Shown here: in pieces, positions 1 through 40,607 of the stretch
How the letters are laid out: each line of letters starts with the position of its first letter
How positions within the stretch are numbered: the first letter of the stretch is position 1
Source: Mya arenaria
Lineage: Eukaryota; Mollusca; Bivalvia; Myida; Myidae
Assembly (NCBI RefSeq): GCF_026914265.1
Contig: NC_069125.1
Location: forward strand, 69,518,046-69,582,045
Direction of reading: 5' to 3'
Length of the DNA stretch: 64,000 bases
Made by a program: the position numbers and the translations under genes
The notes under the pieces: generated by a model
Told to the model about the DNA's origin: nothing
Databases searched by the model: none
Seen by the model: only the letters and a program-made list of their open reading frames with translations

Positions 1-904
1 TCCAGTAAAGTAAAAAATACATCTGGCACAATCCCAATGAAGAAATACAGATACAAGATTCATTGAAATGCCATTTGGTAAATACCCAATTCCTGAAAAG
101 ACATATCTGTAGCTCTGGATTAACAGTACATGCACTTATTTTATGGTCTGTCATGGAATCCGGTAGTTGTATGCCCCACATTTTGTTACATAAATTAAAT
201 AAAAAAAACATTATAGACCCTTCCAAGCGTCACCATAAAGACGCACCGTATTGTACACTTAAAACACCATCAGCAGATAGACCCTGGTAACAGCGGTACT
301 AAACTGCCTAGGCGTATTAAATATTTTAAGTATTGACTAAATGTAAATCGCCACCGCGCCTTCCCGGAACAAACGTCCTAATCCTCGGGTTCACGTTGGC
401 CACGGTTATATATTCATGCATGATGGAAAGCTGAACTTGGATTCGTTACGTCATGGTCAACAACATGAAGCCGTGCAGAAGATTGGGCAAGGTATGAGCA
501 ATATGGCAATGGTTTCTGGAGGCTCGTCTGAAATAAACATCACAGACGCGAGCAAACAAAAGACATTTAATTAAAAAGTTACATATGTTATGTTGAAGTT
601 AAGATGACCGGGCTATGGCTCGATTTAAGTATACCGAAAGGTATTTGACAACTATGGATAACATTAAGCTCTATACACACAAATGATGAACTGAAAACAC
701 ACATATATATAGTTTATTATTAACATGTAAAGGCGGTGGGCTGGGCAGGGATTTGAGAAAAAATGTACGGGCTACCTTCTCGGAAGTCGTAGAAGAAAAG
801 GGGAAGTAACAAGGTAAACGCTGACGTCTTTGGATAGATTCTAGAATGATAGACTGGTTATGGTAGTATAGACTTGTATTGTGAAAAGAACTGTGCGTTT
901 GGGT
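1..904. other. Unassigned sequence left of the duplication
   Basis: This stretch lies outside the inverted duplication, whose homology with the right arm begins at about 905. Apart from one open frame at 347-574 (listed separately), I see no recognisable domain, repeat or RNA gene. Short open frames on both strands have no protein-like features that I recognise. Confidence 0.5.
347..574 (+). CDS. Possible terminal exon or gene fragment, unknown product
   Basis: An open frame of 75 codons follows an in-frame TAA at 344-346 and ends at TAA 572-574. The product is hydrophilic and of mixed composition, with HVGHGYIFMHDGKLNLDSLR followed by a Gln/His-rich stretch and a Ser/Gly-rich end. It reads more like protein than the surrounding low-complexity frames, and it is GC-richer than its neighbours. 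I see no good splice acceptor in the right phase directly upstream, and the first internal ATG is 24 codons in. It could be a terminal exon, a fragment of a decayed gene, or chance. I do not recognise the family. Confidence 0.2.
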   Translation: MATAPSRNKRPNPRVHVGHGYIFMHDGKLNLDSLRHGQQHEAVQKIGQGMSNMAMVSGGSSEINITDASKQKTFN

Positions 905-2374
905 AAAGAGAATATTAGACCGCTCTAACAAAAGCCAATATAAAACATTTTATTCAAATCTTATTGAAAAATATGGTGGAAACCTTGTTTTTGAGTGTTA
1001 TTTAAACGACACCTTGATTAACAAAATTTGTTGTGGAAATAAGTTCTTATTTGACATCTTTCATTCCTGGACAGAAGTAAATCAGTTATACCCAAAGATA
1101 CCGACAAATAAAATCATAATATGGAACAACAAACACATTAATAACAACGGTAGCACTTTTTATTACGGAGATTGGTATGATAAAGGTGTACAATTCATAC
1201 AACACATATTTGATTATCGTTCAAAAGACTTTTACAAATTTGAAGATATTAAATATTTATACAATATAAAAAATAACGATTACCTAAAATATTATCAATT
1301 AATAGCCTGTTTGCCTCAGTCAATGAAAGATCAAATGAGAGCTGCTATGCCAATAAACGACTCTCAAGACACGCTAAAACACAAAATCGGAACAAGCAAA
1401 GTAAAACCAAACACATTACTATACTCAATCCAGTTTTATAAAGAAATTCCAGCCAAATAGATGAAAAATGGAAACGGGTCATACCAGATGAATATATAGA
1501 TAACACTTTATGGAAATTAATCTACACATCTTACTATAGATGCACCAATGATGTTACCCTGAGAAGTTTTCAATACAAGTTTATAAACAGAATTATACCT
1601 ACAAACAAATTCTTATACAAGTGTGGAATCTCAAATTCAAGTTTATGTGACTTTTGCGGGGAAAACATCGAAACACAGGAACATTTATTCTGGGAATGTA
1701 GAATAACACAAACTCTGTGGTCTCAAGTAAAAAGAATAATTGATCATAATCCAAACTCGATCAATTTAAACTTAAAAAACATAAGCTTTGGCATCTTTGA
1801 ACAATTACAACATAAGACAATAATAAACTTTTTAATACTGCTAATTAAGTTTTTTATATTTAGCATGAAAAACAGAAACACTATACCAACCTTTACATCC
1901 TTTTTAAACTATGTAAAACTTAGAGAAAAAATAGAGAGCGAAACAGCTCTAGTCAATAACAAAATAAACTTCCATGAAAACAAATGGCATCTGTTGAATA
2001 ACTACATAAATGCATAAGTACCTCCTATCTATTCTATTTCTATTTCTATTATATTCTTTCTATCCTTTCTATCAGTCCAACCCTCCTCCATTATTATGTT
2101 CTCACTCTTTTTTGTTTAAACACTTAAATATTGAAAGATTAAAAAACTGCTTCCTGCATTGGCAGCCACCTATATAGACCTTTTTGTACAATATGTTTTT
2201 GCATGTGATATCACTCATACACCAATACTTAAAAAACAAATATTTTGTTATACAAATAACAAGTACGCTATATAAATGTCTCAATGATATGTATATATAC
2301 ATATATGTTTGCAATGTACTAAGTTGTATAATATTTGTCAATATTGAATAATAAAAAAAAAAAAAAAAAAAAAA
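905..2374 (+). mobile_element. LINE fragment, L1/Tx1-like, 3' end of ORF2 plus tail
   Basis: This is the 3' portion of the same LINE copy seen whole on the other arm. It encodes the ORF2 region downstream of reverse transcriptase, ending in a zinc-knuckle-like stretch (CDFCGE...HLFWECR) at about 1645-1700. The last codons run to a TAA at 2015-2017. A frame change near 1455 breaks the frame. A 3'UTR follows, then AATAATAAAA and a poly-A run at 2349-2372. The 5' edge at 905 is not a normal LINE truncation point. It is the breakpoint of the inverted duplication, because the same LINE continues past this point at 19970-22440. Confidence 0.88.
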
Positions 2375-4500
2375 ACTTTCACTTCAATACGATGAAAATT
2401 AAGTTAGGATGATTATATAGACAAAATGGTTACCATAGCAACAACGATCAACTATAACTCACTTATCGTAATACGTGTGATATAACCAGTCCCTTTTAAC
2501 ATTACCATAACCTTCAACGTGTGTTGGTTATAATTACAAAATACATCTCAATAATTATATGATCTTGCCAAATGTGATAGAAATCAATTACATTGCTGAA
2601 AATCACAGGGAGTTGCTAAAATGCTCATGTAAAATGATGTTTAATAGACCGCTATTAGCTCGTATTGATAATTCTAGGCTTGTTTTGAGTAAATACTGAG
2701 TTTGCCGATTTAGGGACCATCTGGTGTCTAGTGTCTTTAAGTTTATAATGGTAATATGAGAGTGTCAAGAGAAATTAAATTGTGTAAAAATCCCTACAAA
2801 ACAATTAAGATTGATTTCTTAAACATTTGTACACAGCTAATAATTAATTTATGTTCTTACAAATAGGTAAATTTCGAACATATTATAAACTTAAATACAT
2901 ATTGTTAACTTAAATCGATATGGAAATGTTGGTTATTGAATATTGTTATACTGTAATTTTATAACTGTCTCATGTTACTCGCCACAATATGATTCCCGAA
3001 TTACTCTTTTATAAAATAGTAAGAGTTGACATGTGAAGACCTCGTACGGACGGTGGTGTTTTTGCGAAGCTCGTAACCTTTTTTACCATTTTTGTAAAAC
3101 ATATATTGCATTCGTGTCGAAATATCTTGCATTCGTCTCAGAACATAATACAGTTTCAGAAAATGTACAACTTATATACAATTCCTTCAAAAAGAATTGA
3201 CAGTTTAAACCTAAATTCCGACCTACTTTGAGAAGGTAGGCAGTTCATAAACTACTTTGGTTACAATATGCTAGGGGCTTTGTTTGTACCTTTAAGACAG
3301 AAACGCCCAACGTACTTTTTGGCGATAGCTGTTGAACCTCAGTTTTGACTTATATGCGAAGACGGAAAGAAAATAAGACGTTATGTTTAGGATCTTTTTA
3401 AAAATATATTCCTTTTTTGTGAGATTTTTTTTCAGAAAATGGGGAATATCAGAGGTTCTTTTTGGGAAGGAAAACCAGGGTCCGTGGTTTATTTTCTATA
3501 AATACTTTACTCGAGGATTCCGGATAGATTGGACCGTCACATAGCTGGAAAAAATATGCACTTAAATATTACATTTGATGTCAATTTTTTTCAGAAAAAA
3601 ATATTTCAAAATTCGTCTTATTAGTGCCTCTAGTGGGCCCGCCGATTTAACTATAAACCAGTCAAATTCAGGGAAAAGCTCTCAGACAAAATCGAATAAA
3701 TTCATGTTTTTTTTTGTAAACAAAGCGAAGATGTGGCATGAACGGACGTACGGCGATCCGGGAGGGGTATCTGACTTTCTATATTTTGCATGAACTGGCA
3801 TTGACTAAAAGAAGAAGAAGAAGAAAAATAGAAGAAGAAGAAGAATTGATCAATGCCATTGCCTTGATGTGTTCATACATGTAGTCACGGACCTTTGTAA
3901 TTGTGCGAAATAATTTGCTTCAACTATAAATGGTATTATATATTAAAATGAAACATGGCACAAACCCTGCCCCAGTAGTAATGCACATATTTAGCAAACA
4001 ATAGTCTCTGCCATACTATTGAGTAAGACATTTGTTAAAAAAGACATAAGTACTTTTTATACTTAAATGAAACAAATTCATACTGCTTTGTCATACACGC
4101 TTTATGAAAAATTGATCGCCGTTTATCTTTCTTAAGGATAGCTATTGTTTTGTATCATCATACCCAAAAGTGCCTCGTTTGATGGACACGATAGGAACAG
4201 TTAAAATGAAATCTTAAAAGAAGACAAAAAACAGCTGTAATAATTTACCGACATAATGATTGTTTTTATTCTTGCCAGGTAATGAAAATGAAAACGATGT
4301 ATTAACACGTAAAAGTGAAAATGGTTCCAGCAAAAAAACATAGTGATAAACCAACTGCTGCTGAATGCACATTATCCTTTTTTGCATAACAAGTACCTTT
4401 ATATCAAACATGTAATCACCAAAACTAATCCTTATGATAAAGAAAACATATCAACTGTAAAAGGTAGTCATCTAAAACCTGGCATGATTGATCGGATGAC
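2375..4500. other. Noncoding upstream flank of gene A
   Basis: No gene was found. Bases 2375-2740 match arm B (18115-18510). Bases about 2860-3570 match only copy C (inverted, 28980-29830), so arm B lost this piece. A short GAA-rich microsatellite lies at 3808-3846 and is the counterpart of the much longer (TTC)n tracts in arm B and copy C. Confidence 0.7.
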
Positions 4501-4523
4501 TTGCAGTGTTGGTTAAGGAAAGG

Positions 4524-4530
4524 TATAAAA
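4524..4530 (+). promoter_or_regulatory. TATA box of gene A
   Basis: TATAAAA lies 61 bp upstream of the initiator ATG at 4585, which predicts a start of transcription near 4555 and a 5'UTR of about 30 nt. Arm B has the same box on the other strand, and copy C has lost it. A TATA box this close to a small secreted structural gene fits strong, tissue-specific expression (inference). Confidence 0.7.
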
Positions 4531-4584
4531 AGAGTCGGAATGTTTCAGCAGCATTGAGTGGGGCCGTACACCGACGACGTCACG

Positions 4585-6349
4585 ATGAAGTTTCTTATCA
4601 CCGCAATCCTGGGCCTGGCAATCGCCGCATTCGGTATGTAGAGTTTTCTTTCTTAATTTGATCGTATACTAGGCAAAAATATTTCAAAGTCAAATTAAAT
4701 TAAGTGTTTTTATACATAATTATTTGTTATATACTGAGATCATTTTCAGGATTCATATTTTGCCTTATTTCAAAAGGTAGCTCATTGGTGGCGCATGGAT
4801 TATTTTACTTTATCCATTTCAACACATCGGATTATTTGCAGTAAGCGAGGCGACTCCTGGATATTATGGACGCAGCTATGGAATAGGTACGTTAGTCAAA
4901 AACATTGTTCGTTTCATGAATGAAGTGTTGACAAGCCATTTTGTTACATCGTCGAAACATATTTTAGTTAAAACGTATGTACGTTAACACTTTAATAAGT
5001 ACCAGAAATACAGCATATAAACTCGGATAAAAAAAACTAAACCCCATGTATGGTTTTAAGCAAAAATTGAGGTACAGAATTTCCAACTTTAAGACAGCAT
5101 TGAGAATCAGTATAGAGTAAAATTAAAAGTAACGCATTACACCTAACGACAATTTTCAACTCAAAGTTGTTTTATAATCAGGCGGTTACATGGGCGGGGG
5201 CGGTTACGGTGGTGGAATGGGCTCCGGCGGCTATGGAGGTTTCATGGGCGGGGGCGGTTACGGTGGCGGAATGGGCTCCGGCGGCTATGGAGGTGGCATG
5301 GGCGGGATTGGCGGTTACGGTGGCGGAATCGGTTCCGGCGGCTATGGAGGTTACATGAGAGGCATTGGCGGAGGCGGCTACGGTGGCGGAGGCTACGGTG
5401 GCTATGGAGGTGGTGGTTATGGAGGCGGATATGGAAGTGGTATTGGAATGGGTGGTTACGGAGGCGGTGGATATGGTGGCGGAGGCTACGGTGGCTATGG
5501 AGGTTACATGGGCGGGATTGGCGGTTACGGTGGCGGAGGCTACGGTGGCTCTGGAGGTGGTGGTTATGGAGGCGGATATGGAAGTGGTTTTGGAATGGGA
5601 GGTTACGGAGGCGGTGGATATGGTGGCGGTGGATATGGCGGCGGTGGATATGGTGGATTTCGTACGGGTATGTTGATTCCATTATACAGAACAACTGTTG
5701 ATTAAGAACTTACGGTCAAGTAGCCAAACTTCAAAAGCTTTTCCTTACAATATACATTTTCATATACATATTATTCATCTTTCTTTTAAAAAACACGCCG
5801 ACATGATTTCAGTATTTAACATAGGTAGGTTACATGTCATCTCAAACAAGGCATTTTAACCTCAAGACTAATATTATCAAGCAAATAGCAGTATGTAAAA
5901 TGTCAAAACCAAGGTGACCTTGGATGTATGGCGGATAAGTAAGGGCTTTTATCACATCCTTTTTGATATCAGCAAATTATTTTTTTTCAATTTGAAAACA
6001 AACGTTTTTCGAATTTATTAGTGTTAAGAAAGGTTGTAAAAGGCAAATTCGCACAAAAATACGAAAGACATGCATAAAAGAAATCAATGATGCAGTTCAA
6101 TGTTGGAGTTATCGAGTGAAGTATTGAGATCAGCGACGTACTTCTAATTAAATACAATACTCGATACTACGTTCAACAAATATGTACGATCAACTCATAT
6201 ATTTAAAAATGGTGATGCACTTGATACTCACAGGAGCTTACTGCAAATGCCGAAAGAGGTGCAGCTGGAAACAGAAGTTTGTTGGTCGTTGCCCATGGTG
6301 CAAGAAGGGCTGTAAACTTGTGCTCTGCTGCAGAAGGAGGTGGCACTAA
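4585..6349 (+). CDS. Secreted Gly/Tyr-rich repeat protein with cationic 8-Cys tail, copy A
   Basis: I read four coding exons: 4585-4633, 4842-4886, 5182-5667 and 6234-6349 (stop TAA 6347-6349). All junctions are GT-AG, and all coding introns are phase 1. The product is 231 residues. Exon 1 gives a signal peptide (MKFLITAILGLAIAAF), with cleavage plausible near Ala20. Exon 2 gives a short Tyr/Gly linker. Exon 3 gives about 160 residues of GGYGG/GGGMGSGGYGG-type repeats. Exon 4 gives a basic tail with Cys at 197, 199, 203, 213, 216, 220, 225 and 226, ending CCRRRWH. A fifth, untranslated exon starts at 6641. The repeats resemble molluscan shell-matrix or byssal Gly-rich proteins, and the tail resembles no family I can name. 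A role in shell, byssus, mucus or defence is inference. The long antisense frame over exon 3 is a composition artefact. Confidence 0.88.
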
Positions 6350-6640
6350 GCTCCTAGCGACAAGGTAATATATATATACATATATGGTCGAAATCATACC
6401 CATACAAGTAAAACATTATTCCTTTATGTCAGATTTCAGATGGATCTGAGACCATAATGTGTGACGTGCTGTAATATCATTGTTGCTTTGGCGTTTTTCT
6501 TAAATAAGCCTGTTAAAATATGTTAACAGCATAGGGAAACATTGAAATGCTCCTTTGAGATACGAACTACGTTTGTTTTGCTGGAAGTAATGATAATATA
6601 TAAATAATATGCGGTATCAATTGTTTCCTTTTTGTTGCAG

Positions 6641-6735
6641 ACCGGATTGTTTCAAGGACAACGACTTGATTTTCTTTTGTAAATATGTTGAAGTCAAATA
6701 TTAGTAATAAAGCATCGAATTCGCAATGATGTTGT
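6641..6735 (+). other. 3'UTR exon of gene A
   Basis: The fourth intron (about 6365-6640) starts 15 nt after the stop codon and ends in a pyrimidine-rich TTGTTGCAG. The final exon is untranslated and carries the polyadenylation signal. With the donor this close to the stop, the usual 50-55 nt rule predicts no nonsense-mediated decay. The arrangement is repeated in copy B. Confidence 0.65.
6706..6711 (+). terminator. Polyadenylation signal of gene A
   Basis: AATAAA lies in the last exon. Cleavage would be expected 10-30 nt downstream, near 6725-6740. It is conserved in copies B (14077-14082, minus strand) and C (27183-27188, minus strand). Confidence 0.7.
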
Positions 6736-6739
6736 TGTC

Positions 6740-9580
6740 TCGTTGAATACATAAATTCGACAACTGAGTACATTTATGTTACATTTTATAGTAAATTCTG
6801 CCGACCGTTTACAGCTTGTTCTACCGTGTCGTATACTATCTGCATTGTTTTAGGGCGTTTTCGTTTATACCAAACAAGTTTTAGTTCGGCGGTTTGAAGA
6901 CCTGTCTCAAAAGAGTTGCTTGCATGTAGCCATTTCTTCTGCATGTAGCCATTTCTCACTACATTTCTTCAAAACAATGATACAACAGAAGGTCGTTTAC
7001 CTGTTTAAACTTAATATTGTTTTATCACACTTGTTGGATCATGTCCGCCAAGATGTGTTGTGGCTTTTGAAAGTGTGCTAGTTTTCAGATAGAACGATAC
7101 TGCCTACGTAGGGGGTTTCGATAGTTTTAAAATCAAGATTCGTTTTTCGTTAAACAAACGATAAAACTGGTTTTCATTTAATTCAAAATTGTCACAAGAA
7201 ATACACAGTTCGTGAAACCAATATAAAACCAAAACTATTTTGTTACCAACAAACACGCCCTAACAAAGCATAAACTAAGAATTAAGAACATGCGAAAGAA
7301 TTGATGAAATCAATCAGATTTTGTTTCGCCCCATTTAATGCAGACGATCTACCAGAATGCACCTTAAGTTAAAGGTTAAAATGCACTCTTAAGAGTATAG
7401 CGCGATACTAAAAGCTGCCCAAAGGCGATAACACATAATGCCCAAAGGCGGCGATTATACATTCTGCCCAAAAGAAATCATACATTCTGCCCAAAGGCGA
7501 TAATACATTCTGCTAAAAGGCGATAATACATTCTGCCCAAAGGCGATAATACATTATGCCCAAAGGTTATAATGACATTTCATTGTCAATACTTCAAAAC
7601 TAAATGAAAATAGCTTTGATGAACGATGAAGTAAGCTCCGGTGCTTGCTTACGTAATGCAACTATTGTACATTGTTTTGAACAGACACCTGCCCCGAGTC
7701 CAATAAAGTCTAACAACCTCTCACGTTAGCAAACTGTTTTGTTTCCCTATTTTATCGCAGAACACACTGCAAGCGGGGAAACAAATTGCAACCGTTAAAT
7801 CCAAACACGTATTGGAAGCCTGAACTGAACATAGGGCTGATAATACGATGCTGGAGAAAATGTATGGACAAGCCATTATATTATTATACAATGGAAAACA
7901 ACCGAGAAAATCCCTGAAGACATAACATTAACGCAGACCCTGTGAATGCGAAAGGTTCAATACCTAACACGTACTTTACTAAAATGTGTAACGTCACAAA
8001 AGAAAAAAATAACATATAGATTAGGATATTTGACAAATTAGTGTTGGGATAAACGCCATTAAAGGCTATAAGATATGTTTTATGTTTAACAACTGAATGC
8101 ACAATCGTTAACATCAATGAGAGTGAGGACGTTCCACTCATTACAATTACAGGACCTTATTTTCATGTTTCGCGATCGATCTCTGCTCTTTCAAAAACAA
8201 AAGATCTTAACATGACAATACACTTTTAGATATTTATAATCCATGACGAGATTAATAAAGCACCTGATTAACGTCGTACAGAAACTGGTTCAATGGATAT
8301 AAGAAAGCGGTATGGATTGTCATCAATGCGAGTTTCTCATAGACTGAATCATTCATACTATAAAGAAAAGCCGTGGAGAGAATGTTATTTAAATAACAGA
8401 ACAGAAATGTGTTTTGCATTTAGAACGAACATGTTCATTGCCTTACCTATTATACATAAACGACAGTGATTCTTCTTTGGGGGTTGCTGTTTTAATCTTT
8501 AGTTGCCTTCTCAACCTCGCGCATAAATAAATATCGTTTAAATAGCTTGGTGGCTATCAAAACATTTTCTTTAAGAACATGTAAGATGCGAGTCCTAATC
8601 TTAGTCATTTTCCTAACTAATGTAGCTCACTATACTGCTGTACTCCTTTCTTAAATACTTTGTTTTCATTGGCTCGTTTCACCTATATTTTAATTTGGCA
8701 GTAATTCAGCTTTTAATAATATTGAAAATGACTAGAAGACGTGTAGTATGATTATCGTTCCTGGTAAGCTCTCGTTTCATTAAAGGATCTTTAGATCTGT
8801 TATCAACGATCCAAACGTGCGATCACTTCATAGAATCAGAAATCATGTGTTATCATTTATGTTTCGAAACCATTTCTAAGATTAAAGACATAACATAAAG
8901 ATTGTTTAAATTTGTGAATAAAACTTTAAAGACACGAGGCAATGACTCAGACGACAATGAACTAGAGACGAAAACATATACAAACACCACAAACAGACAA
9001 CTAACTCATCAAAATAGCTTTACCGATAAATGATGGGATTACCGCCTTGGAACGGCCAGTGAAACACTATTTAAGGTATAAACAACGATAAATGACTTTT
9101 TTTTTAAAAATTCGTTAAGTTAATATTGATCTTAATGGAAAATACCTTAGCTTAACTGTTTCGATAAATTTGGATTCGATTCTTGAATTGGTAATTCCCG
9201 TGTTTGTTGATAAGCCCATGAAATAGTTATGTATTACAAGGCAGCCGTTAAGATTTAACCATTACATGTTCCTGTCACAGCACTATAAATGATATGGGCA
9301 TATTTGAGAAAGATGACTCGCGCAACGGATAGTATAACAACAGCAAAGCTACGATGTCGATGGTGTCGCGAGAACGATTATAATAGCAGTACTTTAAGAG
9401 TAGACCACATGCATTAGAAATGCAACAAATAAAATAGATGTTGATATGCTGACTTTTTGCATATATAATGAGAACATAAATACCTGCCTGTGTAGGATAA
9501 GACGCTTATGCAGACGAATGTAAGAGAAACCGCCAGATCAACGATACGCTCGACCTAAATCAGTTTCGTTACCAACTATT
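6740..9580. other. Noncoding 3' flank of gene A
   Basis: No gene was recognised. The stretch is mirrored almost base for base at 11144-13985 and, more diverged, at 24360-27160. It holds a 22-bp minisatellite (7416-7571). An 85-codon minus-strand frame at 8141-7884 recurs in copy C as 86 codons but is broken in copy B, and the differences change amino acids freely, so I do not call it a gene. Confidence 0.6.
7416..7571. repeat. Minisatellite, ~22-bp unit, copy A
   Basis: About seven imperfect units of the type CCCAAAGGCGATAATACATT lie downstream of gene A. The same array is at 13147-13327 in arm B and at 26443-26585 in copy C, with different unit numbers and variants. Confidence 0.85.
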
Positions 9581-11143: not shown

Positions 11144-14070
11144 ACATGTAGTTGGAAACGAAACTGATTTAGGTCGAGCGTATCGTTGATCTGGCGGTTT
11201 CTCTTATATTAATCTGCATAAGCGTCTTATCCAACACAGGCAGGTATTCATGTTCTCATTAGATATTCAAAAAGTCAGCATATCAACATCTATTTTATGC
11301 GTTGCATTTCTAATGCATGTGGTCTACTCTAAAAGTACTGCTATTATAATCGTTCTCGCGACACCATCGACATCGTAGCTTTGCTGTTGTTATACTATTC
11401 GTTGCGCGAGTCATCTTTCTCAAATATGCCCATATCATTTATAGTGCTGTGACAGGAACATGTAATGGTTAAATCTTAACGGCTGCCTTGTAATACATAA
11501 CTATTTCATGGGCTTATCAACAAACACGGGAATTACCAATTCAAGAATCGAATCCAAATTTATCGAAACAGTTTAGCTAAGGTATTTTCCATAAAGATAA
11601 GTATTAACTGAACCATGAATTTACCAAAAAAGTCATTTATCGTTGTTTATACCTTAAATAGTGTTTCACTGGCCGTTCCAAGGCGGTAATCCCATCATTT
11701 ATCGGTAAAGCTATTTTGATGAGTTAGTTGTCTGTTGTTGGTGTTTGTATATGTTTTCATTTCTAGTTCATTGTCGTCTGAGTCATTGCCTCGTGTCTCT
11801 AAAGTTTTATTCACAAATCTAAACAATCTTTATGTTATGTCTTTAATCTTAGAAATGGTTTCGAAACATAAATGATAACACATGATTTCTGATTCTATGA
11901 AGTGATCGCACGTTTGGATCGTTGATAACAGATCCAAAGATCCTTTAATGAAACGAGGGCTTACCAGGGACAAATTTCCAACTACACGTCTAGTCATTTT
12001 CAATATTATTAAAAGCTGAATTACTGCCAAATTAAAATATAGGTGAAACGAGCCAATGAAGACAAAATATTTAAGAAAGGAGTACAGCAGTATAGTGAGC
12101 TACTTTAGTTAGGAAAATGACTAAGATTAGGACTCGCATCTTACATGTTCTTAAAGAAAATGTTTGATAGCCACCAAGCTATTTAAACGATATTTATTTA
12201 TGCGCGAGGTTGAGAAAGCAACTAAAGATTAAAACAGCAACCCCCAAAGAAGAATCACTGTCGTTTATGTATAATAGGTAAGGCAATGAACATGTTCGTT
12301 CTAAATGCAAAACACTTTTCTGTTCTGTTATTTAAATAACATTCTCTCCACGGCTTTTCTTTATAGTATGAATGATTCAGTCTATGAGAAACTCGCATTG
12401 ATGACAATCCATACCGCTTTCTTATATCCATTGAACCAGTTTCTGTACGACGTTAATCAGGTGCTTTATTAATCTCGTCATGTATTATAAATATCTAAAA
12501 GTGTATTGTCATGTTAAGATCTTTTGTTTTTTGAAAGAGCAGAGATCGATCGCGAAATATGAAAATAAGGTCCTGTAATTGTAATGAGTGGAACGTCCTC
12601 ACTCTCATTGATGTTAACGATTGTGCATTCAGTTGTTAAACATAAAACATATCTTATAGCCTTTAATGGCGTTTATCCCAACACTAATTTGTCAAATATC
12701 CTAATCTATATGTTATTTTTTTCTTTTGTGACGTTACACATTTAAGTACATGTTAGGTATTGAACCTTTCGCATTCACAGGGTCTGCGTTAATGTTATGT
12801 CTTCAGGGATTTTCTCGGTTGTTTTCCATTGTATAATAATATAATGGCTTGTCCATACATTATCTCCAGCATCGTATTATCAGCCCTATGTTCAGTTCAG
12901 GCTTCCAATACGTGTTTGGATTTAACGGTTGCAATTTGTTTCCCCGCTTGCAGTGTGTTCTGCGATAAAATAGGGAAACAAAACAGTTTGCTAACGTGAG
13001 AGGTTGTTAGACTTTATTGGACTCAGGACAGGTGTCTGTTCAAAACAATGTACAATAGTTGCATTACGTAAGCAAGCACCGGAGCTTACTTCATCGTTCA
13101 TCAAAGCTATTTTCATTTAGTTTTGAAGTATTGACAATGAAATGTCATTATAACCTTTTGGCAGAATGTTTAATCGCCTTTGGGCATAATGTATTATCGC
13201 CTTTGGGCAGAATGTATTATCGCCTTTTAGCAGAATGTATTATCGCCTTTGGGCAGAATGTATGATTTCTTTTGGGCAGAATGTATAATCGCCTTTGGGC
13301 ATTATGTGTTATCGCCTTTGGGCAGCTTTTAGTATCGCGCTATACTCTTAAGAGTGCATTTTAACCTTTAACTCAAGGTGCATTCTGGTAGATCGTCTGC
13401 ATTAAATGGGGCGAAACAAAATCTGATTGATTTCATCAATTCTTTCGCATGTTCTTAATTCTTAGTTTATGCTTTGTTAGGGCGTGTTTGTTGGTAACAA
13501 AATAGTTTTGGTTTTATATTGGTTTCACGAACTGTGTATTTCTTGTGACAATTTTGAATTAAATGAAAACCAGTTTTATCGTTTGTTTAACGAAAAACGA
13601 ATCTTGATTTTAAAACTATCGAAACCCCCTACGTAGGCAGTATCGTTCTATCTGAAAACTAGCACACTTTCAAAAGCCAAAAATGGCGGACATGATCCAA
13701 CAAGTGTGATAAAACAATATTAAGTTTAAACAGGCAAACGACCTTCTGTTGTATCCTTGTTTTGAAGAAATGTAGTGAGAAATGGCTACATGCAGACGAA
13801 ATGGCTACATGCAGAAGCTCCATCATATTGATTAAGCTGTACATAAAACCATTCATTTGTTACTTCAAGCAACTCTTTTGAGACAGGTCTTCAAACCGCC
13901 GAACTAAAACTTGTTTGGTATAAACGAAAACGCCCTCAAACAATGCAGATAGTATACGACACGGTAGAACAAGCTGTAAACGGTCGGCAGAATTTACTAT
14001 AAAATGTAACATAAATGTACTCAGTTGTCGAATTTATGTATTCAACGAGACAACACCATCATTGCGAATT
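11144..14070. other. Noncoding 3' flank of gene B
   Basis: No gene was recognised. It mirrors 6740-9580, including the minisatellite. It carries a segment of about 50 bp near 13810-13860 that arm A has lost and that copy C partly keeps. Confidence 0.6.
13147..13327. repeat. Minisatellite, ~22-bp unit, copy B
   Basis: About eight units of the type TTTGGGCAGAATGTATTATCGCC, inverted relative to the arm A array. Confidence 0.85.
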
Positions 14071-14076
14071 CGATGC

Positions 14077-14082
14077 TTTATT
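14077..14082 (-). terminator. Polyadenylation signal of gene B
   Basis: AATAAA on the minus strand, in the untranslated last exon that starts at 14147. Confidence 0.7.
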
Positions 14083-14146
14083 ACTAATATTTGACTTCAA
14101 CATATTTACAAAAGAAAATCAAGTCGTTGTCCTTGAAACAATCCGG

Positions 14147-14432
14147 TCTGCAACAAAAAGGAAACAATTGATACCGCATATTATTTATATATTATCATTA
14201 CTTCCAGCAAAACAAACGTAGTTAGTATCTCAAAGGAGCATTTCAATGTTTCCCTATGCTGTTAACATATTTTAACAGGCTTATTTAAGAAAAACGCCAA
14301 AGCAACAATGATATTACAGCACGTCACACATTATGGTCTCAGATCCATCTGAAATCTGACATAAAGGAATAATGTTTTACTTGTATGTGTATGATTTCGA
14401 CCATATATGTATATATATATATATATATTACC
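14147..14432 (-). other. 3'UTR intron of gene B
   Basis: Exon 4 ends at 14432, just past the stop codon, and the untranslated exon begins at 14147. The intron contains a (TA)n tract at about 14408-14430 that is longer than in arm A. Confidence 0.6.
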
Positions 14433-14446
14433 TTGTCGCTAGGAGC

Positions 14447-16211
14447 TTAGTGCCACCTCCTTCTGCAGCAGAGCACAAGTTTACAGCCCTTCCTGCACCA
14501 TGGGCAACGACCAACAAACTTCTGTTTCCAGCTGCACCTCTTTCGGCATTTGCAGTAAGCTCCTGTGAGTATCAAGTGCATCACCATTTTTAAATATATG
14601 AGTTGATCGTACATATTTGTTGAACGTAGTATCGAGTATTGTATTTAATTAGAAGTACGTCGCTGATCTCAATACTTCACTCGATAACTCCAACATTGAA
14701 CTGCATCATTGATTTCTTTTATGCATGTCTTTCGTATTTTTGTGCGAATTTGCCTTTTACAACCTTTCTTAACACTAATAAATTCGAAAAACGTTTGTTT
14801 TCAAATTGAAAAAAAATAATTTGCTGATATCAAAAAGGATGTGATAAAAGCCCTTACTTATCCGCCATACATCCAAGGTCACCTTGGTTTTGACATTTTA
14901 CATACTGCTATTTGCTTGATAATATTAGTCTTGAGGTTAAAATGCCTTGTTTGAGATGACATGTAACCTACCTATGTTAAATACTGAAATCATGTCGGCG
15001 TGTTTTTTAAAAGAAAGATGAATAATATGTATATGAAAATGTATATTGTAAGGAAAAGCTTTTGAAGTTTGGCTACTTGACCGTAAGTTCTTAATCAACA
15101 GTTGTTCTGTATAATGGAATCAACATACCCGTACGAAATCCACCATATCCACCGCCGCCATATCCACCGCCACCATATCCACCGCCTCCGTAACCTCCCA
15201 TTCCAAAACCACTTCCATATCCGCCTCCATAACCACCACCTCCAGAGCCACCGTAGCCTCCGCCACCGTAACCGCCAATCCCGCCCATGTAACCTCCATA
15301 GCCACCGTAGCCTCCGCCACCATATCCACCGCCTCCGTAACCACCCATTCCAATACCACTTCCATATCCGCCTCCATAACCACCACCTCCATAGCCACCG
15401 TAGCCTCCGCCACCGTAGCCGCCTCCGCCAATGCCGCTCATGTAACCTCCATAGCCGCCGGAACCGATTCCGCCACCGTAACCGCCAATGCCGCCCATGC
15501 CACCTCCATAGCCGCCGGAGCCCATTCCGCCACCGTAACCGCCCCCGCCCATGAAACCTCCATAGCCGCCGGAGCCCATTCCACCACCGTAACCGCCCCC
15601 GCCCATGTAACCGCCTGATTATAAAACAACTTTGAGTTGAAAATTGTCGTTAGGTGTAATGCGTTACTTTTAATTTTACTCTATACTGATTCTCAATGCT
15701 GCCTTAAAGTTGGAAATTCTGTACCTCAACTTTTGCTTAAAACCATACATGGTTTAGTTTTTTTTATCCGAGTTTATATGCTGTATTTCTGGTACTTATT
15801 AAAGTGTTAACGTACATACGTTTTAACTAAAATATGTTTCAATGATGTAACAAAATGGCTTGTCAACACTTCATTCATGAAACGAACAATGTTTTTGACT
15901 AACGTACCTATTCCATAGCTGCGTCCATAATATCCAGGAGTCGCCTCGCTTACTGCAAATAATCCGATGTGTTGAAATGTATAAAGTAAAATAATCCATG
16001 CGCCACCAATGAGCTACCTTTTGAAATAAGGCAAAAAATGAATGCCTGAAAATGATCTCAGTATATAACAAATAATTATGTATAAAAAACACTTAATTTT
16101 ATTTGACTTTGAAATATTTCTGCCTAGTAAACGATTAAATTAAGAAAGAAAACCCTACATACCGAATGCGGCGATTGCCAGGCCCAGGATTGCGGTGATA
16201 AGAAACTTCAT
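14447..16211 (-). CDS. Secreted Gly/Tyr-rich repeat protein with cationic 8-Cys tail, copy B
   Basis: Minus-strand coding exons are 16211-16163, 15952-15908, 15614-15129 and 14562-14447, with exon lengths equal to copy A (49, 45, 486 and 116 nt with stop) and the same phase-1 GT-AG junctions. The product is also 231 residues. I see only a few replacements from A: Ser for Arg in the YM(R/S)GIG segment of exon 3, and Arg for Lys in the WCKK stretch of the tail. All eight tail cysteines are kept. The gene converges with copy A across the palindrome. Both copies look functional, so recent duplication or gene conversion is likely. Function is as for copy A and is inferred. Confidence 0.88.
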
Positions 16212-16272: not shown

Positions 16273-17306
16273 CCTTTCCTTAACCAACACTGCAAGTCAT
16301 CCGATCAATCATGTCAGGTTTTAGATGACTACCTTTTACAGTTCATATGTTTTCTTTATCATAAAAGAAAGGAATTGAATGTTTTGGTGATTACATGTTT
16401 GATATAAAGGTACTTGTTATGCAAAAAAGGATATTGTGCATTCAGCAGCAGTTGGTTTATCACTATGTTTTTTGCTGGAACCATTTTCACTTTTACGTGT
16501 TAATACATCGTTTTCATTTTCATTACATAGCAAGAATAAAAACAATCATTATGTCGGTAAATTATTACAGCTGTTTTTTGTCTTCTTTTAAGATTTCATT
16601 TTAACTGTTCCTATCGTGTCCATCAAACGAGGCACTTTTGGGTATGATAATACAAAATAATAGCTATCTTTAAGAAAGATAAACGGCGATCAATTTTTAA
16701 ACAATGTCATAAAGCGTGTATGTGAAAGCAGTATGAATTTGTTAAATTTTTAAATATAAAAAGTACTTATGTCTTTTTTAACAAATGTCTTACTCAATAG
16801 TATGGCAGAGACTATTATTTGCTAAATATGTGCATAACTACTGGGGCAGGGTTTGTGCCATGTTTCATTTTAATATATAATACCATTAATAGTTGAAGCA
16901 AATTATTTCGCACAATTACAAAGGTCCGTGACTACATGTACGAACACATCAAGGCAATGGCATTGATCAATTCTTCTTCTTCTTTTTCTTTTTCTTCTTC
17001 TTCTTCTTCTTCTTCTTCTTCTTCTTCTTCTTCTTCTTCTTCTTCTTCTTCTTCTTCTTCTTCTTCTTCTTCTTCTAGTCAATGCCAGCTCATGCAAAAT
17101 ATAGAAACTCCCGGATCGTCGTACGTCCGTTCATGCAACATCTTCGCTTTGTTTACAAAAAACATGAATTTATTCGATTTTGTCTGGGAGTTTTTCCTGA
17201 ATTTGATTGGTTTATAGTTAAATCGGCGGGCCCACAACAGGCACTAATAAGACGAATTTTGATATAAAATTTTCTGTATACTTGCTTCTAATTGCACTCC
17301 TTATAA
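16273..17306. other. Noncoding upstream flank of gene B with (TTC)n tract
   Basis: No gene was found. It matches 3570-4520 of arm A inverted. A (TTC)n microsatellite occupies about 16973-17076. It creates long poly-Ser and poly-Arg frames, which I do not treat as coding. Confidence 0.75.
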
Positions 17307-18529: not shown

Positions 18530-21500
18530 TTTTATTATTCAATATTGACAAATATTATACAGCTTAGCACATTGCAAACATATATGTATATATACATATC
18601 ATTGAGACATTTATATAGCGTACTTGTTATTTGTATAACAAAATATTTGTTTTTTAAGTATTGGTGTATGAGTGATATCACATGCAAAAACATATTGTCC
18701 AAAAAGGTCTATATAGGTGGCTGCCAATGCAGGTAGCAGTTTTTTAATCTTTCAATATTTAAGTGTTTAAACAAAAAAGAGTGAGAACATAATAATGGAG
18801 GAGGGTTTGACTGATAGAAAGGATAGAATGAATAGAATAGAAATAGAAATAGAATAGATAGGAGGTATTTATGCATTTAAGTTGTTATTCTTCAAGTTTA
18901 TTTTGTTATTGACTAGAGCTGTTTCGCTCTCTATTTTTTCTCTAAGTTTTACATAATTCAAAAAGGATGTAAAGGTTGGTATAGTGTTTCTGTTTTTCAT
19001 GCTAAGTATAAAAAAAACTTCATTAGCAGTATTAAAAAGTTTATTATTGTCTTATGTTGTAATTGTTCAAAGATGCCAAAGCTTATGGTTTTTAAGTTTA
19101 AATTGATCAAGTTTGGATTATGATCAATTATTCTTTTTACTTGAGACCACAGATTTTGTGTAATTCTACATTCCAAGAATAAATGTTCCTGTGTTTCGAT
19201 GTATTCCCCGCAAAAGTCACATAAACTTGAATTTGAGATTCCACACTTGTATAAGAATTTGTTTGTATGTATAATTCTGTTTATAAGTTTGTATTGAAAA
19301 CTTCTCAGGGTAACATCATTGGTGCATCTGTAGTAAGATGTGTAGATTAATTTCCATAAAGTGTTATCTATATGTTCATCTGGTATGACCCGTTTCCATT
19401 TTTCATCTATTTGGCTGGAAGTTTCTTTATAAAACTGGATTGAGTATAGCAATGTGTTTGGTTTTACTTTGCTTGTTTCGATTTTGTGTTTTAGCGTGTC
19501 TTGAGAGTCGTTTATTGGCATGGCAGCTCTCATTTGATCTTTCATTGACTGTGGCAAACAGGCTATCGATTGATAATATTTTAGGTAATCGTTATTTTTT
19601 ATATTGTATGAATATTTAATATCTACAAATTTGTAAAAGTCTTTTGAACGATAATCAAATATGTGTTGTATGAATTGTACACCTTTATCATACCAATCTC
19701 CGTAATAAAAGGTGCTACCGTTGTTAATAATGTGTTTCTTGTTCCAAATTATGATTTTATTTGTCGTTATCTTTGGGTATAACTGATTTACTTCTGTCCA
19801 GGAATGAAAGATGTCAAATAAGAACTTATTTCCACAATAAATTTTGTTAATCAAGGTGTCGTTTAAATTACACTCAAAAACAAGGTTTCCACCGTATTTG
19901 TCAATAAGGTTTGAATAAAATGTTTTGTATTGGCTTTTGTTAGAGCGGTCTAATATTCTCTTAACCCAAGACGCTTTAATTGAATTAACAAGTTTATATA
20001 TGTCAGGTACTTTCTGACCTCCATGTTCGTATTCTTGTATAAGTAAATTTCGTTTTATTTTATCAGGTTTGTGATCCCATATAAAGTTAAATATATCTTT
20101 GTTTATATCGTCAAGGATATGTTTTTGCGGGTTTGGTAGAACAGTTAATGGATATATAATTTTTGGCAGTGCAAATGTTTTTATAACTGTCACCTTGCCA
20201 AGAAGAGTGAGTTTTCTGTGATGCCAACTTTTGAGACGATTTTTGAAATTTTGTAATTAAGGGAGAAAATTGAGGTCTAGGAAGCTATTTTCAACATTTG
20301 TGAAATTTATACCAAGTGTTTTTGCTTGGTTCGATGTCCATATGAATTTCTTTTCTGGCAAGTAAGTTAAAATCGAGTCTTGCATTTTTCCTGCTCTGAA
20401 TATGATTGACTTTTTAGTGTTCGGTTTAAACCAGATATATGTCCCAACTCATCTATTGTATTGACTAGAGCGGTAAAAGATTTTTCGGTACCCTCATTTT
20501 TTTTTATAAGTCGCGTCATCGGCAAACAGTGATTGTTTGATCTCAATATTGTATATATGTAGGCTAACAATGTCCGTTTTGTTCTGTATAGCGTTGGAGA
20601 GTATATCGATACAAATAATAAATATATAAGAAGAGAATGGGCAACCTTGTCGTACTTCTCTTTCAATTTTCATCTCCTCAGAAAAATATCCATTGTTGAT
20701 GATTATACTACTGATATCATTATAAAACAGTTAAACCCATTTAATCAATTCCGCACCAAAATTAAAATGACGTAAACAGTTTAACATGAACGAATGTTCT
20801 AGGCTATTGAAGGCCTTCCCAAAGTCAGCAAAAAATAAAATTCCTGGTGTGTTTGTTTTGTTTAAGTAAGATATACATTCATCTATCAGTCTAACGTTTT
20901 CTTCTATATATCTAGATTTTATGAAACCAGTTTCGAAGGGGCTTATTATTGATGGAAGTATACATTTTATTCTGTTCGCTATGGCTTTTGTGGCAACTTT
21001 GTAGTCTACATTCAATAAGCTGATCGTCTCCAGTTAGATAAACAATCTGAGTCTTTACCAGGTTTTGGAATGAGAGGAATAATACCTTGTTTTCGGAGTA
21101 GAGATAAATGTCCTGATGTAAACGACGTATTCAATGAGTTTGTGTAGTGGTGTTTTAAGTTGTTCCAAAATGTTACATAAAACTCACTTAAAATCCGTCT
21201 GATCCTGGACTTTTGTTGTTTTTCATTTCGTTAAGTGCTTTAAAACATTCATGTTCTGTTAAGAGGCCTTCACATGATAACATTTGTTCGTTGTTTAATT
21301 TGGTTGTTGAGTAGTCTAATAAAGATGAATCAGGTCTAAAAAGGGTGTTTTTCTTGTATAAATTAGAATACATGGTGTAAAATTTGTATTGTTCATTAAC
21401 TATTTCCTTTTGACATATTGTAATTTTATTATTAATGTTAAGTTTATGCATTGTTTTCATTTCTGCTCTTCTCGTTTCGAGGTTTGAAAAGTATGCTGTA

Positions 21501-24790: not shown

Positions 24791-27160
24791 ACTATCTTCT
24801 CAAATATGCCCATTTATGGTGCTGTGATAGGAACATGTAATGGTTAAATCTTAACGGCTTCCGTGTAATGCATAAATATTTCATGGGCTTATCCACAAAC
24901 ACGGAAATTACCAATTCAAGAATCGAATCCTAATTTCTCAAAACAGTTAAGCTTAGGTATATTTTCCATTCAGATAAATATTAACATAACCATGAATTTA
25001 CCAAAAAAAGTCATTTATCGTTGTTTATACCTTAAATAGTGTTTCACTGGCCGTTCCAAGGCGGTAATCCCATCATTTATCGGTAAAGCTATTTTGATGA
25101 GTTAGTTGTCTGTTGTTGGTGTTCCTATATGTGTATGTAATGTTAATACGTTTGTGTTTCTAGTTCATTGTCGTTTGAGTCATTACCTTGTGCCTCTTAA
25201 AATGTATTGACACTTTTGAACAATCTTTATTATATGTCTTTAATCTTAGCAAGTGTTTCGAAACAAAAATGATAACATCACAGGATTTCTGATTCTATAA
25301 AGTGATCGCACGTTTGGATCGTTGCTAACAAATCCAAAGATCCTTTAATGAAACGAGGGCCTACCAGGGACGATATTCATACTACACCTCTAGACATTTT
25401 CAACTTTATTAAAAATAAATTTTGCCAAATTAAAATATTAGGTGTAACGAGCCAATGAAAACAAAGTATTTAAGAAAGGAGTACAGCAGTAAAGTGAGCT
25501 ACTTTAGTTAAGAAAATAACTTAGGTTAGGACTCGCATTTTACATGTTCCTAAAGAAAATGTTATGATAGCCGCCAAGCTATTTAAACGATACTTATTTA
25601 TTGGCGAGGCTGAAGAGGCAACTGAAGATTGAAACAGCAACTCCCAAAGAAGAATCACTGTCGTTTATGTATAACAGATAAGGCAATGAACATGTTTATT
25701 CTTAATGCAAAACACATTTCTGTTATGTTATTTGGATAACATTCTCTCCACGGCTTTTCTTTTTAGTATGAATGATTCAGTCTATGAGAAACTCGGATTG
25801 ATGACAAACTAAACCGCTTTCTTATATACATTGAAAAACTTTTTGTACGAGGCTAATTAGGTGCTTCAATAATCTCGTCATGGATGGTAAATATCGAAAA
25901 GTGTACAGTCATGTTACGATTGTTTGTGTTTGAAAGAGCAGAGATCGATTGCGAAACATAAGGTCCTGTAATTGTAATGAGTGGAACGACTTCACTCTCA
26001 TTGATGTTAACGATTGTGCATTCAGTTGTTAAACATAAAGCATATCTTATAGCCTTTAATGGCGTATATCCCACCACTAATTTGTCAAATATTCTAATCT
26101 ATATGTTATTTTTTTCTTTTGTGACGTTACACTTTTTCGTAAAGTGCATGTTAAGTATTGAACCTTTCGCCTTTACTGGGTTGGCGTTAATGTTATGTCT
26201 TAAGGGATTTTCTAGGGTTTTTTCAATTGTATATTAATATAATGCCGTGTCAATACATTTTCTCCAGCATCGTATTATCAGCCCTGTGTTCAGTTCAGGC
26301 TTACAATAGGTGTTTGCAGTTACCGTTAGCAATTTGGTTCCCCGCTTGCAGTGTGTGCTGCGATAAAATGGGGAAACAAAGTAAAACAGTTTGCTAACAT
26401 GAGAGGTTGTTAGACTTTATTGGACTCAGGACAGGTGTCATTATAAGCTTTGGGCAGAATGTATTACCGACTTTGGGCATAATGTATCATCGCCTTTGGG
26501 CATAATGTATCATCGCCTTTGGGCATAATGTATTATCGCCTTCTGGCAGAATGTATTATCGCCTTTGGGCATTATGTGTTATCGCGCTGCACTCTTAAGA
26601 GTGCATTCTGGTAGATCGTCTGCATTAAGTGGCGCGAAATAAATTATTGACTTCATCAATTCTTACGCGCGTTCTTAATGCTAAATTTATGTTTTCTTAG
26701 GGCGTGTTTTTTGGTAACAAAATATATTTGGTTTTATATTGGTTTCACGAACTGTGTATTTCTTGTAATAATTTTAAATTAAATGAAAACCAGTTTATCG
26801 TTTGTTTAACGAAAAACGAATGTTGATTTTTAAAACTTTCGAGAACCCCTCCGTAGGCAGTTTTGTCGGTTTGTTCTATCCGAAAACTAGTCCACTTTCA
26901 AAAGCCACAACACAACATGGCGGACATGATCCAACAATTGTGATAAAACAATATTCAGTTAAAACAGACAAACGACCTGCTGTGGTATCATTGTTTTGAA
27001 GAAATTTAGTGAGAAATGGCTACATGCAGAAGCTCCATCATATTGATAAACTTTTACATAAAAACAAGTTTGGTATAAACGAAAACGCCCTAAGACAATG
27101 CAGATAGTATACTACACGGTAGAACAAGCTATAAACGGTCGGCAGAATATATTTTAACAC
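24791..27160. other. Noncoding 3' flank of pseudogene C
   Basis: Diverged homologue of 11400-13985. It contains a short version of the 22-bp minisatellite. Open frames at 25977-26237 (plus) and 26077-25853 (minus) overlap each other and show no constraint relative to the other copies. Confidence 0.6.
26443..26585. repeat. Minisatellite, ~22-bp unit, copy C
   Basis: About six units of the TTTGGGCATAATGTATTATCGCC type, matching the arrays in arms A and B. Confidence 0.85.
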
Positions 27161-27164
27161 ACCA

Positions 27165-27680
27165 TCATTGCGAATTCGATGCTTTATTATTAATATTTGA
27201 CTTCAACATATTTACAAAAGAAAATCGAGTCGTTGTCCTTGAAACAATCCGGTCTGCAACAAAAAGGGAAACAATAGATATCGCATGTTATTTATATGTT
27301 CTCATAACTTCTAACAAAACAAACGTAATTCGTATCTCCACGGAGCATTTCAATGTTACCCTATATTGTGAACATATTTTTAACAGGCTTATTTAAGAAA
27401 AACGCCAAAGCAACAATGATATTGCAGCACGTAACACAGTATCGTCTGAGATCCATCTGAAAGCTGTTAACTTATCATCATTTTCATTTTTCTGACATAG
27501 AAAATGTATTACTTGTTTGGGTATGATTTCGACCGTATATATATATTACCATGTCGCTAGGAGCTTAGTGCCACCTCCTTCTGCAGCAGAGCACAAGTTT
27601 ACAGCCCTTCTTGCATCATGGGCAACGACCAACAAACTTCTGTTTCCAGCTGCACCACTTTCGACATTTGCAGTAAGCTC
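27165..27680 (-). pseudogene. Remnant of the Gly-rich/8-Cys gene, copy C: last coding exon and 3'UTR exon only
   Basis: Exon 4 survives at 27680-27565 on the minus strand, with its acceptor AG and its normal TAA (27567-27565). The untranslated exon with AATAAA also survives (27188-27183). A TGG codon of the tail has become TGA (27618-27616), which would remove the last five cysteines' context after the fourth. An Arg has become Trp earlier in the tail. The signal-peptide exon, linker exon, Gly-rich exon and TATA box are absent: sequence matching 14856 of arm B is joined directly to sequence matching about 16291, at about 27982. This is a clear host pseudogene. Confidence 0.85.
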
Positions 27681-29832: not shown

Positions 29833-31045
29833 ACACACCTGTATGGTGTAGAACATACCCACACCTGTATGATGTAGAACATCCCCACACCTGTATGGTG
29901 TAGAACATACCCACACCTGTATGGTGAAAACATACTCACATCTGTATGGTGTAGAACATACTCACATTTGTATAATCTAGAACATACTCACACCTGTATG
30001 GTGTAGAACATACCCACACATGTATGGTGCAGAGTATACTCACCCATGTATGGTGTAGAACATACTCACACCTGTATGGTGTAGAACATACCCACACCTG
30101 TATGGTGCAGAGTATACCCACAACTGTATGATGTAGAACATACTCACACCCGTATGGTGCAGAACATACTCACACCTGTATGGTGTAGAACATACCTACA
30201 CTTGTATGGTGCAGAATATACACACACCTGTATGGTGTAGAACATACTCACATCTGTATGGTGTAGAACATACTCACACCTATATGGTGCAGAACATACT
30301 CACATCTGTATGGTGTAGAACATACCCACACCTGTATGGTGTAGAACATACCCACACCTTTATGGTGTAGAACATACTCACATCTGTATGGTGTAGAACA
30401 TACCCACACCTGTATGGTGTAGAACATACCCACACCTGTATGGTGTAGAACATACCCACACCTGTATGGTGTAGAACATACCCACACCTGTATGGTGTAG
30501 AACATACCCACATCTGTTTAATATAGAACATATTCACACCTGCATTGTTTAGAACATACCCACACCTGTATGGTGTTATACCCGCGCATGTATGGTGTTG
30601 AACATACTCACACCTGTTTTGCGTAGAACATACTCACATCTGTATGGCGTAGAACATACCCACACCTGTATGATGTAGAACACACCCACACCTGTATGGC
30701 GTAGAACATACCCACATCTGTATGATGTAGAACATACTCACACCTGTATGATGTAGAACATACCCACATCTGTATGGCGTAGAACATACCCACACCTGTA
30801 TGATGTAGAACATACCCACACCTGTATGGCGTAGAACATACCCACACCTGTATGATGTAGAACATACCCACACCTGTATGATGTAGAACATACTCACATC
30901 TGTTTAATATAGAACATATTCACACCTGCATTGTTTAGAACATACACACACCTGTATGGTGTTATACCCGCGCATGAATGGTGTTGAACATACTCACACC
31001 TGTTTTGCGTAGAACATACTCACCTCTGTATGGTGTAGAAAATAC
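29833..31045. repeat. Minisatellite array, 26-bp unit
   Basis: About 45 units of the type CACACCTGTATGGTGTAGAA plus CATACC. Substitutions alternate (GGTGT, GGCGT or GATGT; CCCAC or CTCAC), giving local sub-blocks. A block of about 360 bp, with a distinctive GTTTAATATAG...TGCATTGTTTAG...GCGCATG series at about 30505-30620, recurs at 30900-31020. The unit is not a multiple of 3, so the repetitive open frames are not evidence of coding. Confidence 0.93.
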
Positions 31046-36230: not shown

Positions 36231-36840
36231 CACACTTTCATGCAACATGATTTATCCATAGAGAGGAACTCACAAGCAACATGATTTATTAATAGAGGTA
36301 CAATCGCATGCAACATAAATTGTAAATAGAGGGGTTATTCAAGGAGCATGGCTTGATCATAGAGGGGCAGTCACATGCAACATGACTTATTAATAGAGAT
36401 CCAACCACATAAAACATTACTTATACATAGAGGTGCAATCATATGTTACATGGCTAGTACATACAGGCGCAATCTCATGCAACATGACTTGTACATGGAG
36501 GGGCAATCACATGCAACATGACTTGTACATGGAGGGGCAATCACATGCAACATGACTTGTACATGGAGGGGCAATCACATGCAACATGACTTATAAGTAT
36601 AGGTACAATCACATGCAAAATGAATTATACATAGCAATTTGACTAATACATAAAGGCGCAACAATGCACATGAAAAATGACTTATACATAGAGGCGTATT
36701 CATAAGGAACATGACTTGGTTATAAGGGCGGAAACACATGCAACATGAAATATACCTAGTGTCGCAACGATATGGAACATGACGACTGGAAAGATACGTA
36801 ACCACATGCGCAATCACATGCAACATAGTTGGGCTACTGT
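36230..36840. repeat. Degenerate minisatellite edge, 34-35 bp units
   Basis: Irregular units with the shared core ATCACATGCAACATGACTTR TACATRGAGG. Four near-identical units at 36470-36595 form a small fresh expansion. Confidence 0.8.

Positions 36841-40521: not shown

Positions 40522-40607
<86 letters not shown>

Follow-up and report, generated by a model that had tools for sequence, protein, structure and literature searches.

The window, a stretch of 64,000 nucleotides from the clam Mya arenaria (NC_069125.1, 69,518,046 to 69,582,045; positions below are counted from its first base unless another contig is named), carries on its forward strand a gene, here called A (4585-6349), whose four coding exons splice into a protein of 231 residues, from the ATG at 4585 to the stop, with GT/AG borders at each junction and every intron in phase 1. 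Exon 1 (4585-4633; 49 nt, ending in phase 1) encodes the signal peptide MKFLITAILGLAIAAF, 16 residues of hydrophobic character, from which the product is judged to be secreted; a coding exon 1 of 49 nt recurs in all 11 intact genes of the family described below. Exon 2 (4842-4886; 45 nt) encodes VSEATPGYYGRSYGI, within which the signal peptide is perhaps cleaved after VSEA. Exon 3 (5182-5667; 486 nt, 162 codons) is made up of Gly/Tyr(/Met) repeats, and exon 4 (6234-6349) encodes a Lys/Arg-rich tail with eight cysteines, followed by the stop. A further intron begins 15 nt past the stop and leads to an untranslated exon (6641-6735; 3' end approximate) with an AATAAA at 6706, which is conserved in copies B and C. 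Upstream of the gene lies a TATA box (TATAAA, 4524-4529); each of the 11 intact genes has a TATA 57-70 nt ahead of its start codon. A TGACTT element of putative function (4497-4502) precedes the box, and in 8 of the 11 genes such an element starts 23-27 nt before it; the element occurs in the alpha and gamma groups, is absent in the two beta genes and is altered in L012. The four exons and the 231 residues are those proposed in a first-pass annotation of this DNA, and comparison with the paralogues places its junctions correctly to the base; the TATA box, the intron after the stop, the 3' untranslated exon, the inverted duplicate B and the degenerate copy C are additions to it.

The tail of gene A comprises 38 residues, with one His, no Asp or Glu, and a cysteine spacing of C-x-C-x3-C-x9-C-x2-C-x3-C-x4-C-C; this spacing and the 13 Lys/Arg had been given in the annotation and prove exact on recount. 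A loose form of the cysteine frame occurs in none of 100 single-base shuffles of the window. Throughout the family the tails hold 11-13 Lys/Arg and no acidic residue. In all 11 intact genes, the 12 residues preceding the tail contain neither a dibasic nor an R-x-x-R site, so that release of the tail as a free peptide does not appear to be favoured; the earlier suggestion of an antimicrobial head freed by proteolysis is weakened in the cleavage step, and in that step only, as the predicted fold of the tail resembles defensins.

Gene A sits in one arm of a palindrome and an intact copy, B (14053-16211, minus strand), in the other. Copy B has its exons at 16211-16163, 15952-15908, 15614-15129 and 14562-14447 (coding span 16211-14447) and its 3' untranslated exon at about 14148-14053; its protein, likewise of 231 residues, differs from that of A at two of them, one in the repeats of exon 3 and one in the tail. 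The arms (899-9578 against 19969-11149) align in five collinear pieces that are 88-98% identical, interrupted by a gap near 2.7-3.6 kb. Taken in bins of 500 bases, they are 98.8-100% identical in the seven bins across 5.0-8.5 kb; of the other 12 bins, seven stand at 96-98% and five, at the ends and around the gap, at 54-85%. This near-identical core over the gene, set against the more diverged flanks, suggests that gene conversion has homogenised the core of A and B. The third copy, C (27159-27680, minus strand), is degenerate: exons 1-3 are missing, the tail exon (27680-27565) contains a TGA, and the 3' untranslated exon follows at about 27254-27159.

(GAA)n tracts of very unequal length lie at the same place upstream of all three copies (about 3810-3846, 16970-17080 on the minus strand and 28620-28760 on the minus strand; limits set by eye). 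Long minisatellites with 26-bp and 34-bp units, the latter in a 102-bp higher-order arrangement, fill 29834-31045, 31611-36594 and 39367-48152. Fragments of non-LTR retrotransposons, with zf-RVT and RVT_1 matches, are found at 18997-20256 (minus), 50798-51346 (minus) and 63288-63833 (plus). An open frame at 53243-53818 (minus) without a Pfam match has the stretch GVVERNPGP, which we take to resemble a 2A-type peptide, ahead of a retrotransposon-like frame. Two further frames (58844-59212 and 60584-60889, both minus) have no Pfam match at 0.01 and, by eye, are presumably a recombinase and a reverse transcriptase of DIRS type.

A search of the genome (1,216,080,610 bases in 18 contigs, the locus counts being lower bounds) with the tail as query finds at least 14 loci at E ≤ 0.001, and at E 10 the same 14, a distant pair on contig C1 and a weak match on C10; a gamma tail as query recovers the same 17 places. 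The C10 match (E about 1.5) was judged to be due to chance. The loci form three groups: alpha, with copies A, B and C of the window, two loci on C4 (69.514 and 69.607 Mb) and one on C15; beta, with three loci, all on C12; and gamma, with five loci on C4 (69.39-69.46 Mb). Eleven of the 14, that is A, B and nine paralogues elsewhere in the genome, are intact from ATG to stop, with a signal exon, one to three exons bearing Gly/Tyr repeats, and a tail exon with all eight cysteines; their introns are in phase 1 and every internal exon is a multiple of 3 nt, the splice sites of the paralogues having been picked by eye under the phase-1 rule, with more than one possible acceptor for exon 3 of L009 and L015. 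The remaining three, copy C, L016 and L019, are degenerate: exons 1-3 of L016 were not found within the stretch examined, L019 has a changed start codon and a Trp in place of one tail cysteine, and a stop or the loss of a cysteine inside the tail is seen in two of the three.

Judged by these loci, gene A is a member of a multigene family, which is probably a lineage-specific set of silk-like secreted matrix proteins of a clam. The order proposed at the outset for a single gene, a secreted Gly/Tyr repeat protein ending in a basic eight-cysteine tail, holds in all 11 intact genes. In 11 of its 14 genomic copies the tail exon follows a signal exon and Gly/Tyr exons, so that comparison gives no support to the possibility that it is part of another gene. 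That the first-pass annotation merely joined a low-complexity frame to an unrelated cysteine-rich one is scarcely credible when 11 paralogues share both order and phase and when the tail exon is conserved while the introns have diverged. The proteins contain 48-54% Gly and 8-19% Tyr, have a pI of 9.4-9.6, and in their mature form hold 2-8% of Met, Leu and Ile together. The gamma genes have repeats such as GGFGGMSGGYGGG, and gene A has GGYGGGM/GGYMGG. The motif PCKGK-x-C (x being H, Y, W or M) directly follows the signal in nine of the 11 and is absent from the pair A and B; if cleavage of the signal after residue 20 is assumed, all 11 mature chains have an even number of cysteines (8 or 10).

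The divergence of introns and flanks around the tail exon is substantial. Over its 116 positions, exon 4 is identical to that of A at 112 in L015, 106 in L009, 112 in L016 and 113 in copy C. In these four, the closing stretch of intron 3 agrees with A at 185/271, 172/271, 217/289 and 268/289 positions, and the 3' flank at 262/384, 265/405, 385/469 and 406/441, respectively. At the protein level, 22 of 37 columns are invariant in an alignment of 13 of the 14 tails (copy C being omitted for its stop), and the eight cysteines are kept in all 11 intact genes. A codon comparison (18 chosen pairs among 14 tails, over 34 codons) points the same way: the five gamma genes vary at eight of the codons, always synonymously, with 22 of the 102 sites synonymous, and their tail protein is identical; in other pairs, dS and dN are 1.22 and 0.08 for A and L017, 1.80 and 0.21 for A and L011, and 0.63 and 0.20 for L017 and L011. 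The comparison indicates that the tail is under purifying selection. Two pairs depart from this, A and L009 with seven nonsynonymous changes to one synonymous, and A and B with one to none, and would speak against a frozen structural end as assumed in the explanation preferred below; the degenerate copies C and L016 differ by 3.5 nonsynonymous and 0.5 synonymous changes.

The distant matches on C1 belong to one apparent gene (L029; C1:21463500-21473400, minus strand), which has three eight-cysteine modules near 21.4681-21.4689 Mb: an exon with phase 1 at both ends carries one of them, and the exon after it, the last, carries the other two. The gene yielded no Gly/Tyr part, and no exon 1 could be identified with confidence in the 12.5 kb upstream of the modules. 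The double module as query gives 12 other matches, all of them tail loci (E 1.3e-4 to 0.6), and the next five matches of the first module are gamma tails (E 0.03-0.1); two matches of the latter on C14 (E 2.9 and 7.5) were judged to be due to chance. When the C1 modules are shuffled with their cysteines fixed and compared to four tails, 0 to 8 per 1000 reach the real score. Tails and modules share the signature C-x-C-x3-C-x3-Q-x0,1-[FI]-x-G-x-C-P-x-C-x2-4-C-x4,5-C-C, as read from an alignment (A3) of 11 tails and the three modules, omitting copy C as well as L013 and L014, whose tail proteins equal that of L012. Its tandem occurrence on C1, where no Gly/Tyr part was found, shows the tail to be a separable domain; it is an exon-borne unit that is joined to silk exons via phase-1 introns. 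The modules on C1 hold only 2-6 Lys/Arg and one Asp each (counted by eye), so that the strong charge is a property of the tails joined to silk.

For this domain, neither Pfam nor NCBIfam offers a family that fits (searched with the window tail, the 13 tails and the C1 modules), and together with the sequence searches of the PDB this agrees with the earlier failure to name one. Pfam Defensin_RK-1 matches one of the 13 tails at E 2.9 and the window tail not at all. The double module matches zf-Di19 at E 0.035, which at 14.8 bits against a cut-off of 27.5 was judged to be due to chance. In the PDB, beta-defensin 104, the same molecule as human beta-defensin 4 (HBD4), appears in all three sequence searches made with the alpha tail or with tail profiles: as second match of the alpha tail (E 2.8 for the whole sequence, 8.4 for the single stretch), as the only match of the first profile (5.5 and 79), and as first match of the second (0.32 and 1.4). 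To give a scale, the core of beta-defensin 104 finds another beta-defensin, spheniscin-2, at E 0.33. No defensin appeared in PDB searches with three tails shuffled at fixed cysteines, which gave chance matches down to E 0.45, nor in those with the gamma tail, one C1 module or the double module. Directly compared to beta-defensin 104, such shuffles gave 0, 1, 0 and 37 of 1000, counts that are biased in that this chain had been preselected as the best match in the whole PDB.

Structure prediction with the 13 close tails yields a weak AlphaFold model (pLDDT 66.4, pTM 0.33); with the C1 modules added, it rises to pLDDT 77.7 and pTM 0.44, with three short strands. Foldseek returns 20 PDB matches at E up to 10, none at 0.001, of which ranks 1-15 are all alpha- or beta-defensins, ranks 16-19 sirtuins and rank 20 a big defensin; human beta-defensin 4 stands first (E 0.082, prob 1.00, TMq 0.68, rmsd 1.8 over 35 columns). 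This likeness comes from one AlphaFold model, which may simply reflect the local likeness to beta-defensin 104. The beta-defensin / trans-defensin superfamily has the six-cysteine frame C-x4-8-C-x3-5-C-x9-13-C-x4-7-CC, with disulfides C1-C5, C2-C4 and C3-C6; the tail does not follow this frame. Permuted-WAP and conotoxin frames were weighed as other candidates and dropped. A defensin-like fold of the tail is a lead, and a rather unlikely one. It is likewise rather unlikely that a domain of defensin fold, widened by an extra disulfide, came by the joining of exons to stand at the end of silk-like proteins of shell or skin in clams, where it would either provide the structural polymer with a charged, disulfide-locked end or arm the material against microbes.

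The same model allows a different reading of the whole protein, as an immune effector in which a defensin-like tail would act against microbes and the Gly/Tyr part would be a carrier or second active region; as its model matches defensins, the tail might just as well be an immune peptide. Antimicrobial proteins that are both glycine-rich and cysteine-rich, such as the crustins and hyastatin, are known from arthropods. Besides the recurrence of beta-defensin 104 in the sequence searches and the defensins at ranks 1-15, with HBD4 first, a strong positive charge, membership in a multigene family and a G-x-C motif would suit such an effector. None of the matches is significant, though, the single-stretch E-values are weaker still and chance matches of one shuffled tail reach E 0.45; the gamma tail and the C1 modules find no defensin by sequence, no processing site precedes the tail in any intact gene, and a silk region of 160 residues with GGY repeats is unusual in a peptide precursor. 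Many immune peptides vary, unlike the tails of the five gamma genes, which are identical. We consider an immune effector improbable.

We think it rather probable instead that the family encodes structural matrix proteins of the mantle, periostracum or ligament, which would work like the KRMP of pearl oysters with the order of the regions reversed and another cysteine frame. The Gly/Tyr region would assemble on chitin and have its tyrosines cross-linked by quinone tanning, as has been put forward for KRMP-3. Held by up to four disulfides, the tail would form a compact unit, a charged chain end that might anchor the protein to acidic glycoproteins, the mineral surface or neighbouring chains; where PCKGK-x-C provides a second short, basic cysteine pair at the N-terminus, both ends would have a grip. 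The likely site is the mantle edge, that is the periostracum, the siphon sheath, the outer shell layer or the ligament. Cross-linking and the binding of chitin or mineral are inferred by analogy to KRMP-3, an analogy drawn from descriptions of these proteins.

Two further readings were considered. The proteins might form an abductin-like Gly/Met/Tyr elastomer of the inner hinge ligament or siphon sheath, with the tails as the ends of a covalent network; the repeats GGFGGMSGGYGGG and GGYGGGM/GGYMGG resemble those of abductin, and the low share of Met, Leu and Ile in the mature chains argues against it. Met-rich insoluble proteins are described from the pearl-oyster ligament (PMC7591529). We regard such an elastomer as quite improbable, and it differs from the preferred matrix protein in site more than in working. 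A byssal or other foot adhesive protein is very improbable: the family is Gly/Tyr-rich, basic, secreted and multigene, traits that also occur in byssal proteins, but nothing in the sequence indicates the foot, and adults of Mya arenaria are not known to have a byssus.

A search of a collection of papers by the letters of the tail and N-terminal motifs and by description gave no account of the protein; members may be listed elsewhere without a name. The consulted parts of PMC5105077 and PMC8905726 contain nothing on this protein. As far as could be seen, the conserved eight-cysteine module is new, and so are its position at the end of a silk and its repetition in tandem on C1. Accounts of silk-like shell proteins usually rest on the repeats, whose evolution is too rapid to be traced; this family is marked by a small, strongly conserved cysteine module, which a profile can trace in other bivalves and which can be produced by itself for testing. 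With the triple module on C1 the domain is seen in another setting, which makes growth of the mantle secretome by exon joining directly testable. A defensin-like fold, if true, would link immune proteins to structural proteins of the shell.

Among known systems, the minicollagens of cnidarian capsules, in which a short structural repeat has a Cys-rich domain at each end and disulfides of these domains lock the wall, offer an analogy of working alone, their repeat being collagen and their cysteine frame another. Abductin of the scallop ligament resembles the family by description, with Gly-rich repeats containing aromatic and Met residues; we know of no cysteine tail in it. With the alpha- and beta-defensins of vertebrates and the big defensins the tail would share the three short strands predicted for it, and with beta-defensin 104 it shares the spacing C-x3-C-x9-C and a CC end; it differs in having eight cysteines instead of six, with an extra pair in the last loop, in a first cysteine displaced relative to the defensin frame, in its place C-terminal to a silk, and in the lack of a significant score. 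Shematrins are known to have short basic ends only.

The remaining comparisons are with shell proteins, and are likewise by description, within the parts of the sources consulted. Silk-like, fast-evolving families of mantle proteins are a known kind (PMC4944945, PMC4897951). The shematrins and shematrin-like proteins of pearl oyster and zebra mussel are mantle-expressed and basic, with Gly-rich GnY arrays (PMC9210306), and in the zebra mussel six shematrin-like transcripts bearing Gly-n-Tyr repeats rank with the most mantle-specific ones (PMC9210306); the clam proteins have the same long GnY arrays and basic character, with secretion judged from the hydrophobic exon 1, and are set apart by the eight-cysteine tail, of which the passages on shematrins make no mention (PMC9210306). 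Perlinhibin of abalone nacre, a small Cys-, His- and Arg-rich shell mini-protein, resembles the tail alone in composition (PMC6003135), and is a free mini-protein without fusion to a silk part. Also close are the KRMPs of pearl oysters, which are secreted, basic (predicted pI 9.5-9.8), multigene and lineage-specific (PMC4498902, PMC3191542, PMC4897951) and, like the proteins described here, combine one basic, cysteine-bearing region with one Gly/Tyr region; in KRMP-3 the latter binds chitin and the former alters the growth of CaCO3 (PMC4498902). In KRMPs the basic region, with six conserved cysteines (PMC3191542), comes first and the Gly/Tyr region last, whereas in the clam a far longer Gly/Tyr region comes first, and the Cys-rich basic region, with its eight cysteines, is C-terminal in all 11 intact genes, nine of which also carry PCKGK-x-C in front.
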